From contig NZ_FUWR01000001.1 in NCBI RefSeq assembly GCF_900167465.1, positions 427,269-491,268 of the forward strand: a stretch of 64,000 bases of DNA, written 5' to 3'. Numbering within the stretch: position 1 is the stretch's first letter; each line of letters starts with the position of its first letter. The DNA is from Trichlorobacter thiogenes (GTDB lineage Bacteria; Desulfobacterota; Desulfuromonadia; Geobacterales; Pseudopelobacteraceae). The position numbers and the translations under genes are program-made. Positions 4,802-43,920 of this stretch are shown piece after piece. Below the pieces are notes generated by a model. The model saw only the letters and a list, made by a program, of their open reading frames with translations. It was not told the origin of the DNA and ran no database searches.

Positions 4802-4832
4802 TGGCCCAGTTCTTTATGATTAACCATCTGAA

Positions 4833-4915
4833 CCGCTAGGGGAGTTTCGACTGAGAGCAGCAACTGGCTGCGACCCTTGGAACCTGATCCGGGTAATTCC
4901 GGCGTAGGGAAGCGG
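4833..4915 (+). ncRNA. TPP riboswitch (THI element)
   Basis: The aptamer has the invariant CTGAGA (4851-4856). A perfect GCAGC/GCTGC hairpin forms the variable P3 extension. ACCCTTGGAACCTGATC and the GGGTAATTCCGGCGTAGGGAA block follow. P1 closes CCGCT (4833-4837) with AGCGG (4911-4915). Known TPP riboswitches of this class turn off thiamine synthesis when thiamine pyrophosphate is plentiful. The intrinsic terminator 33 bases downstream implies transcriptional control of thiSEGH. Confidence 0.95.
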
Positions 4916-4947
4916 ACGATTTTGAGAAGTGTATCAAATTCCGAATC

Positions 4948-38266: not shown

Positions 38267-38381
38267 GCAGCTCCTCTGCCCCAGATTCGGGTGGTGGCAT
38301 CAGTGTTTCTTTTCCTGTTCAATAGCAGGCAGACAAACGGGTTAACTACACTCTTCTGGTTGTGTAATGTCAGAGCTGGTT

Positions 38382-38648
38382 TTACTCATAGTGCGTCCAC
38401 ATTCTGAGAACCTTAACGGTCTTGATGTCGTCCAATACTTGGTAAACGATTCGATGTTGAATATTGATTCGCCTTGAATAGGCACCGGACAGGTCGCCTA
38501 CAAGCTTTTCATAGGGCGGAGGGTTCTGAAAAGGGTTCTCTTTCAGGATTTCAAGGATCTTTTCAGCGTGTGATTTGAGATTTGAGCGTAAAAGCTTTTG
38601 CGCATCTTTTTGAGCCTGCTTCGTGTAAACAAGCTTCCAGCCTACCAT
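38382..38648 (-). CDS. YoeB-like type II toxin (mRNA interferase)
   Basis: An 88-residue RelE/YoeB-fold protein. The N-terminal WKLVYTKQAQKDAQKL, the FQNPPPYEKLVGDLSGAYSRRINIQHRIVYQV block and the final RMWTHYE match Txe/YoeB toxins, which cleave mRNA at the ribosome. The terminal His-Tyr and the central arginines expected for catalysis are intact. ATG 38648 is chosen; it overlaps the antitoxin stop by seven bases, the usual coupling. Confidence 0.92.
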   Translation of the reverse strand: MVGWKLVYTKQAQKDAQKLLRSNLKSHAEKILEILKENPFQNPPPYEKLVGDLSGAYSRRINIQHRIVYQVLDDIKTVKVLRMWTHYE

Positions 38649-38884
38649 GCCAGCTCCTCGCTGCATTCTTCGATTGGAGCACTAAGGCCCTTCTGGATGG
38701 ATTCGCGCATGCCAGGAATGGAAGTTAAGAAAAGAGTTTCCTGGATTGCACGCCAATCATCTTCTGAGACAAGAACCGCTGAATGACGTTTGCCAACTAT
38801 TTGTATTGGATCGTGGGACAGGGCGACATCGTCTACAAGGTTGTAGAGACTCTTTCTTGCTGCAGTGGCTGTTACTGTTGTCAT
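38642..38884 (-). CDS. YefM/Phd-type antitoxin
   Basis: An 80-residue DNA-binding antitoxin. The N-terminal Phd/YefM fold begins MTTVTATAARKSLYNLVDDVALSHDPIQIVGKRHSAVLVSEDDW. The C-terminal tail would wrap the toxin. ATG 38884 has GGAGG eight bases upstream; the GTG-type extension to 38899 is not needed. A palindromic CGTACG pair just upstream is the likely autoregulatory operator. Confidence 0.92.
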   Translation of the reverse strand: MTTVTATAARKSLYNLVDDVALSHDPIQIVGKRHSAVLVSEDDWRAIQETLFLTSIPGMRESIQKGLSAPIEECSEELAW

Positions 38885-38903
38885 TGGGGTAACCTCCATT
38901 TGT

Positions 38904-38921
38904 CGTACGTATAATCGTACG
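38904..38921 (-). promoter_or_regulatory. putative operator of the YefM/YoeB-like pair
   Basis: Two identical palindromes, CGTACG, at 38904-38909 and 38916-38921 are 12 bases apart centre to centre, about one helical turn, with a TATAAT-like core between them. They lie 20 bases before the antitoxin start, where Phd/YefM repressors bind. Confidence 0.65.
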
Positions 38922-39106
38922 ATATGGTGTGGCTAAAGTCAAGTTTGCGTCATGCGGAATATCTTGGTTCTAATTCGCTATTAACCGGTTGGAAAAGGTG
39001 ACTATCATTGTCTTTGCTTGGAATAGATAGCCAGAGGTAGTAAGACGGGGACTTTTCTGTTGTGTCAAGAGAGGGTTGTTCTTGAGTTTCTTAGCTCAAA
39101 AGATTG

Positions 39107-39481
39107 CTAGGGATCAGTTTGTTCCATCTTTTCAAGCAGGCCTGGCCTGTTGTAGTCAAAGACCTCTTTTGACCATACTGCAGACCATTTTCCCAGCGGC
39201 AAGATGATGGTGCGCAGTTCATTGCCTCGCGGCGTCAGTACGTAACCATCAAGGGTCTTTTCCACCAGATCGGCCTCACGCAGATCTTTGATGCGGCTAT
39301 TCAGGATGGAAGGGGAGATATCACCGCAAAGTTCCTGCAGGTTGCGGAATGTACAGGGGCCTTTTTCCAGGTTCCAGAGAATACCAAGCGCCCAGCGACG
39401 GCCCAAGAGGTCAAACAGGGCGTTGATCGGCGTACCGGAGAGAGAACCACGTACCTTGTTTCCGGGGCTTGGAATGGACAT
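39107..39481 (-). CDS. HxlR-family transcriptional regulator
   Basis: A 124-residue winged-helix regulator. LFDLLGRRWALGILWNLEKGPCTFRNLQELCGDISPSILNSRIKDL is the HxlR recognition core, followed by the wing LVEKTLDGYVLTPRG. Members usually respond to electrophiles, aldehydes or redox signals. It follows the small tautomerase gene by 84 bases on the same strand, and the strong palindrome before that gene is its likely operator. The AAGGAG upstream lies about 13 bases from the ATG, longer than usual. Confidence 0.88.
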   Translation of the reverse strand: MSIPSPGNKVRGSLSGTPINALFDLLGRRWALGILWNLEKGPCTFRNLQELCGDISPSILNSRIKDLREADLVEKTLDGYVLTPRGNELRTIILPLGKWSAVWSKEVFDYNRPGLLEKMEQTDP

Positions 39482-39565
39482 CGGAAGCGATTATCTCCTT
39501 GGGGTTGTAGATGAACAGACACTGATTCGGCTGCCGCGGACAACGAAATCAGTGTCTGGTGTGAA

Positions 39566-39766
39566 TTAACGAGCCTGAGCCGCTTTGATTTCGGCGAGCG
39601 TCAGGCCTCCAATTCCGATGTTGGTGCTGTCAAGTTCGTTAATGAAAACAATGAACTTCTCAGCGGGGATATTTGTGACGTCTACAGCGGTCTTTGTCAA
39701 GTTTTTGATCAAAGCCTGCTTGGTTTCAGTATCTACGCTGTGCATCTCAATGTTAATAACCGGCAT
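39566..39766 (-). CDS. 4-oxalocrotonate tautomerase-like protein
   Basis: A 66-residue protein starting MPVINIEMHSVDTETKQALI, with the catalytic Pro2 (Pro1 after Met removal) intact. The beta-alpha-beta 4-OT fold fits the length, and residues IPAEKFIVFINEL match the second strand. It may isomerise enol/keto acids or detoxify unsaturated aldehydes. ATG 39766 has AAGGAG upstream; the longer frame to 39805 would hide the proline and overlap the operator. Co-transcribed with the HxlR regulator. Confidence 0.88.
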   Translation of the reverse strand: MPVINIEMHSVDTETKQALIKNLTKTAVDVTNIPAEKFIVFINELDSTNIGIGGLTLAEIKAAQAR

Positions 39767-39783
39767 GATAATCTCCTTGTCAT

Positions 39784-39826
39784 TTTTTAGTAGCGCGCTA
39801 CACATTTAATAGCATGCTACTAAAAA
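39784..39826. promoter_or_regulatory. large palindromic operator before the tautomerase-hxlR unit
   Basis: Outer arms TTTTTAGTAGC (39784-39794) and GCTACTAAAAA (39816-39826) are perfect inverted repeats. Each arm also holds a ten-base palindrome, TAGCGCGCTA at 39791 and TAGCATGCTA at 39810, so two dimers could bind side by side. It begins 18 bases before the tautomerase start. Confidence 0.75.
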
Positions 39827-39843
39827 CGAAGCAAGAGTTTATA

Positions 39844-40136
39844 TCACGATGCGGCCTTGCACGTTTCCAGTAGCTCTGGTAGCCGCCTAAAATAATCATC
39901 CAGCGTAACCGCCGTAACCTCTCGATTCAGCGGTCGGGTAGTGTCGCTCAGCGACAGCAGCAGCCCGGTGCCGGGCCAAGCTCTGCAAACAGCTCGCGGA
40001 AGCTGGTAAGCGTGCGGGCCTGCTGTGGCGTCCGGGTTTTGGTCAGTTTAATCTCTACGGGAACCATCTGCCCGGCTGATGGTTCAATCAGCAGATCCAC
40101 CTCCAGTCCGTTTCCGGTCCGCATGCGCGATTTCAA
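39844..40136 (-). pseudogene. C-terminal remnant of a DUF4143 AAA ATPase, frameshifted
   Basis: The minus strand reads NGLEVDLLIEPSAGQMVPVEIKLTKT then TSFRELFAELGPAPG. This is the nuclease-like C-terminus of the DUF4143 ATPase family, which usually ends about 400 residues after a P-loop. Near 39960 a one-base shift breaks the frame. The adjacent frame continues LLLSLSDTTRPLNREVTAVTLDDYF and stops at 39844. The ATPase N-terminus is absent, and homology ends at the perfect inverted repeat at 40135. A decayed fragment, not a gene. Confidence 0.8.
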
Positions 40137-40169
40137 TGCAAATTTAAAGTGGCATTTTAAATTTGCATT
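40135..40169. repeat. perfect 14-base inverted repeat
   Basis: AATGCAAATTTAAA (40135-40148) and TTTAAATTTGCATT (40156-40169) are exact inverted copies separated by seven bases. It is AT-rich unlike its surroundings and marks the exact edge of the DUF4143 remnant. It could be an operator or the scar of a rearrangement. Confidence 0.8.
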
Positions 40170-40302
40170 GGCTGTGATGAGGCATTTTCAGCCTGACTGG
40201 TTGGGAATTGGGTGTTCCCGCCGTTGATTTCTCTCTTTTTGTAAATTGTGTAGTTTTGACACCAATTGCCTCACTTCCTCTTTCCCCTGCAGCTTCCTGA
40301 TG

Positions 40303-40998
40303 CTACCTCTTGACTTTTTTATCCCTGAAATAATCTTTTGAAACCTTCAAGACAGCTCCCAGAGTCCGGCAGCTGCTCGCGTTGCATTTTTTATATAACT
40401 GTCTGTCTATCAGTTGCTGAAGCTTTTCGTCGAGTGTCCAGGAACCGTCTGCCGCAGGCAGATATACGGCGAAAACATCGAACGGCTCCGTACCGGTCGG
40501 TCCGATACCTGTAATGGCCGCTACGTCTATGACGATGGCTCGTTGGCCATTTCCCTGGACATCGCGAAAGGCAACCGATTCGATATGATCAAAGGACCAT
40601 TCCATTGCCGGATGAGTTGGCAGAGGCCGGATTTCCCCATTCTTCCGGTCGATGATCAAGAAAGAAACGGATTGAGACCAGGTCCTGGCCGCCTTTGTAC
40701 CCTGTTCATAATCGGCCTGGACAGGAACGAAATAGACGTCTTCCAGCCCCTTTTGTTCAGAGGCTATCCTGAAAGACTGCTTTTGCAGGTCATCTTGCCA
40801 ATAAAGTCCCGGATACTTTGAAAGCTCTTGCTGGGGGACCCATTTTGATTCGAGCGGCTTGAAAATCCGTTGGAGTTTGGTTTTATCTCCGGCATCAATC
40901 GGCTGCACAAGAAACTTACTTTCAGCTGCCGCTAAACTGCCTGATGCCCCTAAAATCAAGCAAAGCATGAAAACAAGCGAGATTTTTGAATAGAACAT
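40303..40998 (-). CDS. secreted protein of unknown function
   Basis: A 231-residue exported protein with a signal peptide ending SLAAAES near residue 26. The mature part contains SVAFRDVQGNGQRAIVIDVAAITG, an FG-GAP/VCBS-like strand pattern, and Cys residues near the C-terminus (KKCNASSCRTL) that could pair. No family confidently recognised. CAGGAGA precedes the ATG. Single gene. Confidence 0.7.
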   Translation of the reverse strand: MFYSKISLVFMLCLILGASGSLAAAESKFLVQPIDAGDKTKLQRIFKPLESKWVPQQELSKYPGLYWQDDLQKQSFRIASEQKGLEDVYFVPVQADYEQGTKAARTWSQSVSFLIIDRKNGEIRPLPTHPAMEWSFDHIESVAFRDVQGNGQRAIVIDVAAITGIGPTGTEPFDVFAVYLPAADGSWTLDEKLQQLIDRQLYKKCNASSCRTLGAVLKVSKDYFRDKKVKR

Positions 40999-41304
40999 AT
41001 TCTCTCCTGCTGTTTCTATCGGATTGCTGCGGATACTGGAGGCGCCTCAAGGCGGACCAGGTATCTACACTAGAGAAATCAGTTTCACGCGGAGTCACGG
41101 AGGCGAGAAGAGTGAAATCAGCTGGTTACGCCATCTTGCAGTACAAATTGCTTGATTATATCCGCGAGCCTCTCGGCTCCGCGTGAGTAACTGCCGTTTT
41201 CAGGTCTACATCCTGCTCAACGGTTTGGTAGAACCGCTGGCCCTTTACCAATACCAATAAATATTATAAGGTAAAAGTGTATCAGCATCAATGGAGGTGA
41301 TCTC
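40999..41304. other. intergenic region with repeat and parDE control region
   Basis: A gap of 306 bases with no gene. It contains the second CGCGGAG-type repeat (41084-41189) and, closer to parD, a direct ATACCAAT-like AT-rich stretch near 41255-41285 that may hold the parDE promoter. No -35/-10 pair stands out. Confidence 0.5.
41084..41189. repeat. palindromic CGCGGAG-type intergenic repeat, copy 2
   Basis: The left part, TTCACGCGGAGTCACGGAGG at 41084, opposes the right part, CCGCGAGCCTCTCGGCTCCG (then CGTGAGT), at 41162-41188. The right arm differs from copy 1 (20076-20102) at only two positions. The centre is longer than in copy 1. Confidence 0.7.
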
Positions 41305-41547
41305 ATGCAAAAAAACACCAGTGTTACCCTTGGCAAACACTACGAAAATTTCATTTCCCAGCAGGTTGTCCAAGGCCGTTTTGGTTCTGCAAGTGAGACA
41401 ATCCGTGCCGGTCTACGACTTTTGGAAGAACGGGAGACCAAGCTGTCCCTGCTACGCCGTGCGCTTGTTGAGGGTGAGGAAAGCGGCACTGCTGATTACT
41501 CGCTCAAGAGCTTACTCGCAGAGCTTGACGGTGAAGGTTTTAACTGA
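41305..41547 (+). CDS. parD: ParD-type antitoxin
   Basis: An 80-residue ribbon-helix-helix antitoxin: MQKNTSVTLGKHYENFISQQV at the N-terminus (DNA-binding beta strand), then GRFGSASETIRAGLRLLEERE. The C-terminal helix would neutralise ParE. An ideal GGAGGTGAT ribosome binding site precedes it. The stop TGA overlaps the parE ATG. Confidence 0.92.
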   Translation: MQKNTSVTLGKHYENFISQQVVQGRFGSASETIRAGLRLLEERETKLSLLRRALVEGEESGTADYSLKSLLAELDGEGFN

Positions 41548-41849
41548 TGCCCGCTTTTACCCTCACAAACATGGCAAAGGCAGATATGAAAGAAATTGCC
41601 ACGTTCACACAAAACCGATGGGGGCGCGAACAGCGCAACTTGTACCTGCAAATGCTTGATGTTTCATTTCATCAGTTGGCCGCCAACCCGCTAAAAGGAA
41701 AGGATTGCAGTGATATTCGAATTGGCTATCGGAAATTTAATGCGGGTAGTCATGTAATCTTTTACCGCCAAACTTGTGCCGACATGATCGAGATTGTCCG
41801 TGTTCTGCACGGGCATATGGACATTGAAACGCGACTTTCTGAGCGATAA
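41547..41849 (+). CDS. parE: ParE-type toxin
   Basis: A 100-residue RelE/ParE-fold toxin whose family poisons DNA gyrase. MPAFTLTNMAKADMKEIATFTQNRWGREQRN is typical, as are LAANPLKGKDCSDIRIGYRKFNAGSHVIFYR and the C-terminal EIVRVLHGHMDIETRL. Translated from TGATG overlap with parD. The 3' end meets a truncated histidine-phosphatase gene on the other strand. Confidence 0.92.
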   Translation: MPAFTLTNMAKADMKEIATFTQNRWGREQRNLYLQMLDVSFHQLAANPLKGKDCSDIRIGYRKFNAGSHVIFYRQTCADMIEIVRVLHGHMDIETRLSER

Positions 41850-41879
41850 TACGGGAAGTATCCCTAATTATTCCTATAA

Positions 41880-42141
41880 ATAAATCTGTCACCTTTGTTT
41901 TGTTTGAAATACAAACATGCCCTGCCTTTAACATCTCCCCCGACTCAATCGACCGCTTTAAATCGCTGCAAACTAACGCATTGCATTGGTCAGCCTTTTC
42001 AAGGGCACCGGTTGGCGGGAGCTCTTTTCGATCTACGCCAGCCAGGTTGTAGGATTCGATCCAGGCATGCATCTCAGATGCTTTCAGCCTTCCTGAAGCA
42101 GGCATAGAAGGTTTGCCATGTCTTATGATGACTATTTTCAT
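41880..42141 (-). pseudogene. truncated histidine phosphatase (N-terminal part only)
   Basis: Begins MKIVIIRHGKPSMPASGRLK with the RHG phosphohistidine motif of the phosphoglycerate-mutase-like family. LVCSDLKRSIESGEMLKAGH is the normal next block. Homology stops near residue 80. The remaining frame (to 41737) is antisense to parE and unlike the family, so the second catalytic histidine is lost. It follows the cassette boundary at 42163 and may itself have been a cassette cut short at the parDE junction. Confidence 0.7.
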
Positions 42142-42156
42142 TTTCTCAGTCTTTGT

Positions 42157-42209
42157 AGATAACGACGTGGAGACTCACCAGTGCCTATGGCCCGCCACCT
42201 GATTAAGAG
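42157..42209 (-). repeat. attC-like site of cassette 2
   Basis: On the minus strand CTCTTAA (42209-42203), containing the TAA stop of the upstream gene, is the R'' box. The site runs through GGTGGCGGGCC and CTCCACGTC to G^TTATCT, with the putative crossover at 42163. The R'' box is complementary to the first bases of the same cassette, TTAAGAG at 42729-42723. Stem pairing inside is weak. Confidence 0.5.
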
Positions 42210-42718
42210 CTAATTCTATATATTGCGCAAACTTGACACTCTTGGGCATGGTGATCTTCTGGGAATTGCGTGCGTAGGATGTCTCTAATTCTGAATGCTT
42301 CTGCCAAATCGCACAATAATCCATTTTCCATAATCAGATGAGAAAAAATCCCTTCTTCATCAGTTCCCCAATTTGTAAGCATTGAAATATCTAAATGCGA
42401 GTCAAGCAGATCAAACCCTAGCAATTCTGGGCTCGCTTCATAGCAAATTTCTTCTGGGAAATCGATCCCAACTATTTCCGCATTTTCATACTGTTTTTGA
42501 ACTTTTTTTGCATATTCAAAATTTGTGATCAGTGAGATCTTGAAGTCTTCCTGAACGCAGTTCTGCCAGTCCTCGTTGGATTTCGGCTCAAAGAGGTCAC
42601 CTCTCATAACTCCGTCCACCGACTCAAATCTGGTTAGGTGGAGCCCTCTCCATTTGAGATAGTCACTCCATCTTTCGCCATCTTCCGGCCCAAATTTTTC
42701 GATTACTTTGTAGTACAT
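42203..42718 (-). CDS. cassette-like protein of unknown function
   Basis: A 171-residue acidic soluble protein starting MYYKVIEKFGPEDGERWSDYLKWRG, with no family recognised. The ATG at 42718 is chosen because the longer frame to 42916 crosses an attC-like site and the previous gene. AT-rich relative to its neighbours. It starts five bases after the cassette boundary TTAAGAG, has only a weak ribosome binding site and no promoter, and its TAA stop lies inside the next R'' box. These are all habits of integron cassette genes. Confidence 0.6.
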   Translation of the reverse strand: MYYKVIEKFGPEDGERWSDYLKWRGLHLTRFESVDGVMRGDLFEPKSNEDWQNCVQEDFKISLITNFEYAKKVQKQYENAEIVGIDFPEEICYEASPELLGFDLLDSHLDISMLTNWGTDEEGIFSHLIMENGLLCDLAEAFRIRDILRTQFPEDHHAQECQVCAIYRISS

Positions 42719-42722
42719 AATT

Positions 42723-42777
42723 CTCTTAACGGGCTGAGGGTGTGCGAGGGGGCACCGCACTACCCGATGGTTAAGGC
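42723..42777 (-). repeat. attC-like site of cassette 1
   Basis: On the minus strand: R'' GCCTTAAC (42777-42770), L'' side GGGTAGTGCG, loop, L' side CGCACACCC, then CAGCCCG^TTAAGAG. The inner stem GGGT(A)GTGCG/CGCACACCC pairs with one extrahelical base, as attC hairpins do. The TAA stop of the DUF4288 gene lies inside R''. Confidence 0.6.
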
Positions 42778-43190
42778 TCATTACTGTCCCCAATTGCTGG
42801 GGTGTCGTCAAACACCTCCAGTTCGTGCTTTTCCCTAACCCATGACCGGATTTTTCTGACAGTTCTGTTTTTGTATTCTTCCCAAAGAATCTCAGTTCCA
42901 TCCTCGAGCTCACCATAGATTGGAAGAAGACTCGTCAAGCCGTCTACGACCCAATGTCCTGTCCTTTTGCCTTTTTCATCTTGAAAGGTCGAGGAACTCT
43001 GTGCGAGCTGCAATACCTTCTCATATGCGGCGTCTCGGTCTGGGGCTTTAAGAATTATAGTGTTTTCCCAGGCGTCAGTCCTGCTATTCGGGGAAGGGTT
43101 CGGATCATCATCCCAGACAGGACGCTCAATGTATGAGGCTATCCACCATCCGTATGGTGAGTGATTTCGGTGTGGTATTTTCTCTGTCAT
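42771..43190 (-). CDS. DUF4288-domain protein (cassette-like)
   Basis: A 139-residue protein. GWWIASYIERPVWDDD followed by NTIILKAPDRDAAYEKVLQLAQ is typical of DUF4288, small proteins of unknown role often found in variable regions. It has no clear Shine-Dalgarno sequence or promoter. It starts eight bases after the boundary TTAAGGC and stops within an attC-like R'' box. The preceding DUF2461 gene is normal chromosomal sequence, so the insertion edge is close to 43205. Confidence 0.7.
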   Translation of the reverse strand: MTEKIPHRNHSPYGWWIASYIERPVWDDDPNPSPNSRTDAWENTIILKAPDRDAAYEKVLQLAQSSSTFQDEKGKRTGHWVVDGLTSLLPIYGELEDGTEILWEEYKNRTVRKIRSWVREKHELEVFDDTPAIGDSNEP

Positions 43191-43197
43191 TTTAATT

Positions 43198-43205
43198 GCC
43201 TTAAC
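43198..43205 (-). other. 5' boundary of cassette 1
   Basis: On the minus strand GTTAAGGC, with the crossover expected between G and TT. It is the exact complement of the R'' box GCCTTAAC at the far end of the same cassette, so a circular form would have a fully paired attC. Confidence 0.5.
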
Positions 43206-43233
43206 TCACTATTGACCGGACCAAGCGATGTCA

Positions 43234-43920
43234 TCACCCCTGCTGTACCATCTGCCAGAACAGTTCATACAGCGGTTGCAACTGCCGGAAGCCTGCGGCC
43301 AGATCATCACCGATAGCCTGGCTGAAGAGCCGACCGTCAAGCTCACGGTTGCAGACCAGGTAAATGTTCTTGCGGCAGTGCCAGCTCTGCAGGTCATCCG
43401 GCAGGGTCGGGTTCAGGGGGCGCTTGTAGCAGTCGCCTTCCAGGGCAAAGGCATCCTGTTGGGCAAGCCAGGCCACGGTTGCGCGGAAGCGGGCCGGCTT
43501 GGTCTCGATCAGGCGGCGCAGGTTGTCCATGGTCTGCCGTGAGGCACTGTAAAAGCCCATGCCGTAGCGGTAGCTGTCGGCGGTGATCTCAAAGAAGAAA
43601 CAGGGGGCGGTCTTCCAGTCGGGGCTGTAACGTTTGAAGGTGATCCAGAGGCAGGTCTTGTAGGGCGATTTGTTATGGGAAAAGCGGGTGTCGCGGTAGA
43701 TGCGGGAGATGGTCTTGTCCACTGCCGGGATAGTGATTAGATCGGGATCAAGGGCCAGCATGCTGTCAGCCAGTTCACAGACCAGCAGCTTGAGGGGGGC
43801 CAGCAGTAGTTTCTGATACTCGTCGCGATGGGCTTCAAACCAGGCCTTGTTGTTATTGACCGCCAGCTGCTCGAAAAATCCCGGTGCCAGCGGTGAAAAT
43901 CCGTTAAACCGGTCAGCCAT
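43234..43920 (-). CDS. DUF2461 (TIGR02453 family) protein
   Basis: A 228-residue cytoplasmic protein: FNGFSPLAPGFFEQLAVNNNKAWFEAHRDEY at the N-terminus, then ISRIYRDTRFSHNKSPYKTCLWITF and MGFYSASRQTMDNLRRLI. The family is conserved but its activity is not established. GGAGG precedes the ATG. It is the first ordinary gene beside the cassette-like insertion and ends 28 bases before it. Confidence 0.88.
   Translation of the reverse strand: MADRFNGFSPLAPGFFEQLAVNNNKAWFEAHRDEYQKLLLAPLKLLVCELADSMLALDPDLITIPAVDKTISRIYRDTRFSHNKSPYKTCLWITFKRYSPDWKTAPCFFFEITADSYRYGMGFYSASRQTMDNLRRLIETKPARFRATVAWLAQQDAFALEGDCYKRPLNPTLPDDLQSWHCRKNIYLVCNRELDGRLFSQAIGDDLAAGFRQLQPLYELFWQMVQQG

Follow-up and report, generated by a model that had tools for sequence, protein, structure and literature searches.

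Two neighbouring minus-strand genes in a 64,000-nucleotide stretch of the Trichlorobacter thiogenes genome (the window), together with the truncated histidine phosphatase gene that follows them, are very probably integron cassettes that lie outside of any integron, beside a DUF2461 gene, where an integron integrase (IntI) would have inserted them and where they now seem to be decaying. A sequence-only reading of this DNA had proposed that the two genes (genes 1 and 2) are integron cassettes with no integrase close by. That proposal was right, as shown by homologues in other cassettes and by the match between the two ends of cassette 1. Because homologues of these genes lie in other cassettes, and because the closest good relative (G005) has the same flank without them, we conclude that genes 1 and 2 are cassettes and that the truncated phosphatase gene is a third.

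Reading along the minus strand, the order is DUF2461, G^TT, gene 1, a hairpin, G^TT, gene 2, G^TT, and the start of the phosphatase gene. The DUF2461 gene (43234 to 43920, with its stop at 43234; 180.9 bits) is the conserved backbone flank. All three junctions have the form G^TT (G43205^TTAAGGC, G42730^TTAAGAG, and G42163^TTATCTA), with cuts at 43205/43204, 42730/42729, and 42163/42162. Cassette 1 (42730 to 43204, 475 bp) starts with TTAAGGC and ends with the G that opens the following G^TT, and its gene (42771 to 43190) encodes a DUF4288 protein of 139 amino acids (PF14119; Pfam 37.6 bits). Cassette 2 (42163 to 42729, 567 bp) has a degenerate 3' end, and its gene (42203 to 42718) encodes 171 amino acids with no match in Pfam or NCBIfam. 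Both cassettes thus consist of one gene, a G^TT at each end, and little non-coding DNA. The remaining 5' part of cassette 3 (41902 to 42162) contains the start of the histidine phosphatase gene, with its ATG at 42141. As had been noticed from the sequence, genes 1 and 2 lack promoters and have weak or absent ribosome binding sites: their leaders are 12–15 nt long with no evident Shine-Dalgarno sequence, and there is no promoter-like sequence in the window between 42.0 and 44.0 kb. Both genes had also been described as AT-rich, which is true of cassette 2 (GC 0.42) but not clearly of cassette 1 (0.49, versus 0.54 for the window). The predicted folds are poor (AlphaFold pLDDT of 58.7 for gene 1 and 35 for gene 2), and Foldseek gave no significant match. 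Neither gene has homologues on plasmids or in viral contigs.

The ends of cassette 1 are as expected for a cassette that was once a circle with a single attC. G^TTAAGGC stands shortly before gene 1, and GCCTTAAC at its end; next comes a 55-nt hairpin with the anatomy of an attC (site 1, 42777 to 42723 on the minus strand). GCCTTAAC is the R'' box of this site (42777 to 42770) and is the perfect 8-nt complement of the cassette's own 5' box, GTTAAGGC, just as had been claimed. In both genes, as also reported, the TAA stop lies inside the proposed R'' box. Site 1 folds into an outer R stem (R' is at 42730 to 42723), unpaired spacers, and an inner stem, GGGT(A)GTGCG/CGCACACCC, with the one extrahelical base that had been described. 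Site 1 therefore has both the R''/R' and the L''/L' stems of an attC, with the extrahelical base on the L'' side. This base is the ninth after AAC, which is its place in aligned class 1 sites as well.

To ask how often such agreement arises, we searched for open reading frames (ORFs) whose 5' box has an 8-nt complement in their 3' box, either exactly or with at most one mismatch (the own-end rule). In its loose form, the rule picks out 27 of the 1539 ORFs in the loci that we examined, and most of these are in known integron arrays. With tight windows, and among the 811 ORFs in loci outside of known arrays, five fit with at most one mismatch, including gene 1; gene 1 is the only one with an exact complement. 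attC-like stems are not sufficient evidence by themselves because a simple scan finds others. We rejected a home-made scan for R and L boxes as a way to rank sites because it was too noisy.

The same genes are found in cassettes in other bacteria, with other attC sites (loci L068 and L069 and genomes G056, G014, and G012). Gene 1 has homologues in textbook cassettes from two unrelated bacteria, Candidatus Contendobacter and UBA5122 (L068 and L069). The Contendobacter homologue (69% identical) lies between G^TTAGGTGCC and GGCACCTAAC and is followed by an attC that is recognised by R1, a small general covariance model for attC that was trained on class 1 and cyanobacterial cassettes. In UBA5122, the homologue (50%) is preceded by G^TTAGGCG, and CGCCTAAC marks its end, with a long attC. 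The only homologue of gene 2 that we found (80% identical) is in G056, from another family of the order, where it heads a row of four cassettes whose attC sites are of the GTTGGC type; the DNA similarity runs from ATTATG, 8 nt inside the window's cassette, to 9 nt past the stop. Genes 1 and 2 are almost absent from the rest of the phylum (none found in the other genomes of a 395-genome sample).

No IntI is encoded in the window, and no intI or attI is adjacent to the cassettes. The absence of an integrase that had been reported is therefore correct for the window but not for the genome, which encodes a full IntI (477 bits) on another contig (C13:2903-3847), with an array of a different attC type. 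The sites of this resident integron are 134 nt long (CCTCTAAC...GTTAGAGG) and are unlike site 1. Because contig C29 extends for 469 kb on one side of the cassettes and for 214 kb on the other, the IntI is at least 214 kb away. When we looked for further attC sites in the same genome, R1 gave nothing convincing, and BLAST with site 1 found a single copy. Integron integrases are known in Geobacter (PMC2426708). In congeners, the arrays L050 (G008 C1:15001-35000) and L046 (G002) are mixed: sites of the resident type are accompanied by attC sites that resemble those of class 1, to which R1 gives up to 39.9 and 45.8 bits.

Comparison with relatives shows that cassettes have come and gone at this locus. 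G005 has a DUF2461 protein that is 90% identical, and its DNA similarity to the window ends about 12 nt past the DUF2461 stop, where a different gene follows. In the window, the variable island that is absent from G005 runs from 38281 to 43221 (the alignment breaks at 38280 and 43222). A clean DUF2461 flank without genes 1 and 2 had been named as something to look for, and G005 has it. In a congener (G014, contig C51), the same locus is decayed: a remnant of a resident-type attC joins a Phd/YefM-YoeB toxin-antitoxin pair to the phosphatase gene, and neither gene 1 nor gene 2 is there. The relatives do not simply carry the same genes in place, which would have counted against the cassette reading; instead, each gene is independently present and absent.

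G014 also helps to explain the phosphatase gene. The G014 copy shares 96% DNA identity with the window's and is complete. Immediately before it come the 3' half of an attC of the resident type and then G^TTATCCGC; the window has G^TTATCTAC at this position. In another congener (G012), a homologue (46%) forms a cassette, GTTATGTT...AACATAAC, after a resident-type attC. The suggestion that the truncated phosphatase gene is a third cassette is thus borne out by two congeners. The window's copy is interrupted around codon 80 (41902); a ParDE toxin-antitoxin pair (41305-41849, plus strand) ends close by and abuts the break. The window has its own Phd/YefM-YoeB pair (38382-38899, within the stretch 38368 to 38990, minus strand) with 97% DNA identity to G014 C51, where the pair adjoins the attC remnant and the phosphatase cassette; judging from this arrangement, the pair may be a relic cassette. 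Gene fragments at 39852-40207 (minus strand) recur in G014 C51, where they lie upstream of that pair; the window has genes for a tautomerase and an HxlR regulator in between.

How might these cassettes have arrived? Each would have come as an excised circle, and the bottom strand of its folded attC would have been recombined by an integron integrase, either the resident IntI or a visiting one. The target would have been a G^TT in the ordinary chromosome (an attG-like site) or a site beside cassettes that were already there. Through later deletions, cassette 2 would have lost its attC and cassette 3 its 3' half, which would leave the cluster largely fixed, with cassette 1 alone keeping both of the ends that are needed for excision. 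Because the cassette genes lack promoters of their own, they are probably transcribed, if at all, by read-through from the DUF2461 side.

Alternatively, a piece of a normal array could have been moved beside DUF2461 by rearrangement or transposition, instead of the cassettes being inserted one by one at attG-like sites. This is possible, although we think it somewhat improbable. It would fit the same locus in G014, where the YoeB pair and the phosphatase gene are joined by a remnant of the resident attC type, and the island also contains genes that are not cassettes. But where cassette 1 meets the DUF2461 flank on its left, the junction is also a G^TT, and no half of an attC or attI precedes it; site 1 is not of the resident type; and the island contains no IntI or mobile element. 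We found no precise empty site (GGTCAATAGTGAG^TT) in the relatives, including G005, which lacks the genes but diverges about 12 nt past the DUF2461 stop, so the preference for attG-like insertion over relocation is something that we infer. The phosphatase cassettes in G014 and G012 follow the attC type of the resident chromosomal integron, whereas site 1 belongs to another, shorter attC family.

The proposed attC of cassette 2 (site 2, 42163 to 42213, minus strand) is a different matter. The 5' end of cassette 2 had been described as complementary to its own 3' box, but only 7 of 8 positions agree (CTCTTAAT versus GTTAAGAG), a level that four other ORFs of the 811 also reach, and it is doubtful that this box is a real R''. 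In the alignment with G056, CTCTTAAT corresponds to CTCCTAAT, which is sequence from the end of the gene, and the true R'' of G056 is further downstream; the proposed box is thus part of ancestral gene sequence. In its genomic form, site 2 folds no better than shuffled sequences (z of +0.9 and +0.4), and we found no attC-like or otherwise convincing homologue of it. Neither R1 nor R2 (a model of the site 1 family, described below) matches it. The claim that site 2 is an attC is therefore not supported, although the junction that follows it (42163/42162) is a real cassette boundary. We read site 2 as a lost attC: from GGTGGC up to the 42163 boundary, the 3' flank of gene 2 appears to have been lost or exchanged for other sequence. 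It seems unlikely to us that site 2 is a real, if weak, attC and that cassette 2 is intact as first proposed, even though CTCTTAA complements the cassette's own TTAAGAG, a circular form could pair the R boxes and GTGG/CCAC, and the next junction is a true boundary; a box that aligns with gene sequence in G056 instead of its R'' speaks against it, as does the lack of a significant genomic fold, homologue, or model match. A 22-nt match between junction 2 and the 3' end of a gene from G009 is taken as a coincidence because its right half derives from the phosphatase gene.

Finally, it is very improbable that these are ordinary accessory genes whose boxes and hairpin arose by chance (for instance, as a terminator), because, although accessory genes are often AT-richer and chance alone produces many attC-like stems, gene 1 is the only one of the 811 ORFs that fits the own-end rule exactly, all three genes are cassettes elsewhere, and site 1 has no run of T after it and recurs at the ends of other cassettes.

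Site 1 belongs to a family of short attC sites. Of 141 genomes of the order, 24 gave a BLAST match to site 1 at E <= 0.01. Once partial matches, which are probably due to chance, are set aside, there remain 24 full copies, including the window's; they are spread over 20 of the 141 genomes, each of which has one or two. The pattern (C/T)AAC-CATCGGGTRGTGCGG-N4-8-CCGCACACCCTCAGCCCC-GTT is common to the copies with few departures, and the sequence outside of AAC and GTT differs throughout. Their outer boxes carry the signature of attC, with pyrimidines in the two positions before AAC (41 of 42) and purines in the two after GTT (31 of 34). ORFs that fit the own-end rule lie against or beside several copies (L140 8486-9064, L142 9396-9950, L132 9469-10240, and L082 8017-9151). 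We take the recurrent element to be an attC on the strength of its box signature and fold, of flanks that change from copy to copy, and of these neighbours. Covariation within the family was uninformative because the stem hardly varies and R' is part of the following cassette.

We also built a covariance model (R2) from 23 copies of the family, without the window's. R2 finds site 1 at 42723-42780 with 56.6 bits (E 3e-15), and the next match in the window has 13.3 bits; as the copies were recruited by their similarity to site 1, the E-value shows only that site 1 belongs to a recurrent element. With R1, site 1 scores just 3.5 bits and site 2 is not seen either. The lack of any attC model match at either site would have counted against the cassette reading, but site 1 is matched by the leave-window-out model; R1 sees neither site, and site 2 is seen by neither model. 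Since R1 is blind to both, a general tool may miss them; R1 also misses the resident attC array and the sites in G056. Site 1 resembles the attC sites of class 1 cassettes (aadA1 and others) in its R''/R' boxes and in the position of its extrahelical base, but its L stem and box sequence differ, and its score with the class 1-trained model is low. A model for attC sites from Deltaproteobacteria exists (Ghaly et al. 2021, PMC8352920).

Members of the short family are also present in G023, G044, and G053, three genomes in which no IntI scored above the family cut-off. We tentatively suggest that cassettes with the short Geobacterales attC (about 45 nt from AAC to GTT) may sit mostly alone at attG-like sites and not in arrays, including in genomes without an IntI above the cut-off, and that the window is one landing place. 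If so, attC x attG insertion would have left a natural record across the order. A short attC family that is scattered singly, including in such genomes, may be new. It points to dispersed cassettes that are missed by a general attC model, as well as to two cargo families that are still uncharacterised. In the complete chromosome of G447 (a single contig), two copies (L132 and L133) are 2.4 Mb apart, each alone in its 20-kb stretch.

Cassette insertion outside of integrons has been measured in the laboratory, and Loot et al. in 2024 reportedly described insertion at secondary sites by attC x attG recombination. Clusters of cassettes without an adjacent integrase, and insertion at secondary sites, are already known. 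For secondary-site insertion there is an earlier account (PMC2426708), and attC x attG insertion is credited to Loot et al. 2024 in PMC12901181 and PMC11023631. Our locus is similar in that a cassette lies at a G^TT in the ordinary chromosome, with a left flank that is not an att site; it differs in that there are several cassettes, which are natural and decayed. Clusters of attC sites lacking integrases (CALINs) are another point of comparison; by default, the current IntegronFinder needs two attC sites (PMC9024848). Here there are cassettes with an attC and no integrase nearby, but only one attC can be demonstrated because site 2 is unrecognisable, and the genome encodes an IntI elsewhere. 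With no IntI in the window, one recognisable attC, and three cassette junctions, the locus is, as far as its sequence indicates, a small CALIN-type cluster. Aged natural examples of insertion outside of integrons, which can be checked gene by gene against relatives, should be useful: a complete relative without the genes, and other relatives that hold each of them in another array, illustrate how cassettes can become ordinary chromosomal genes. Elsewhere in the window, there is a TPP riboswitch at 4828-4927 on the plus strand (Rfam 74.2 bits).
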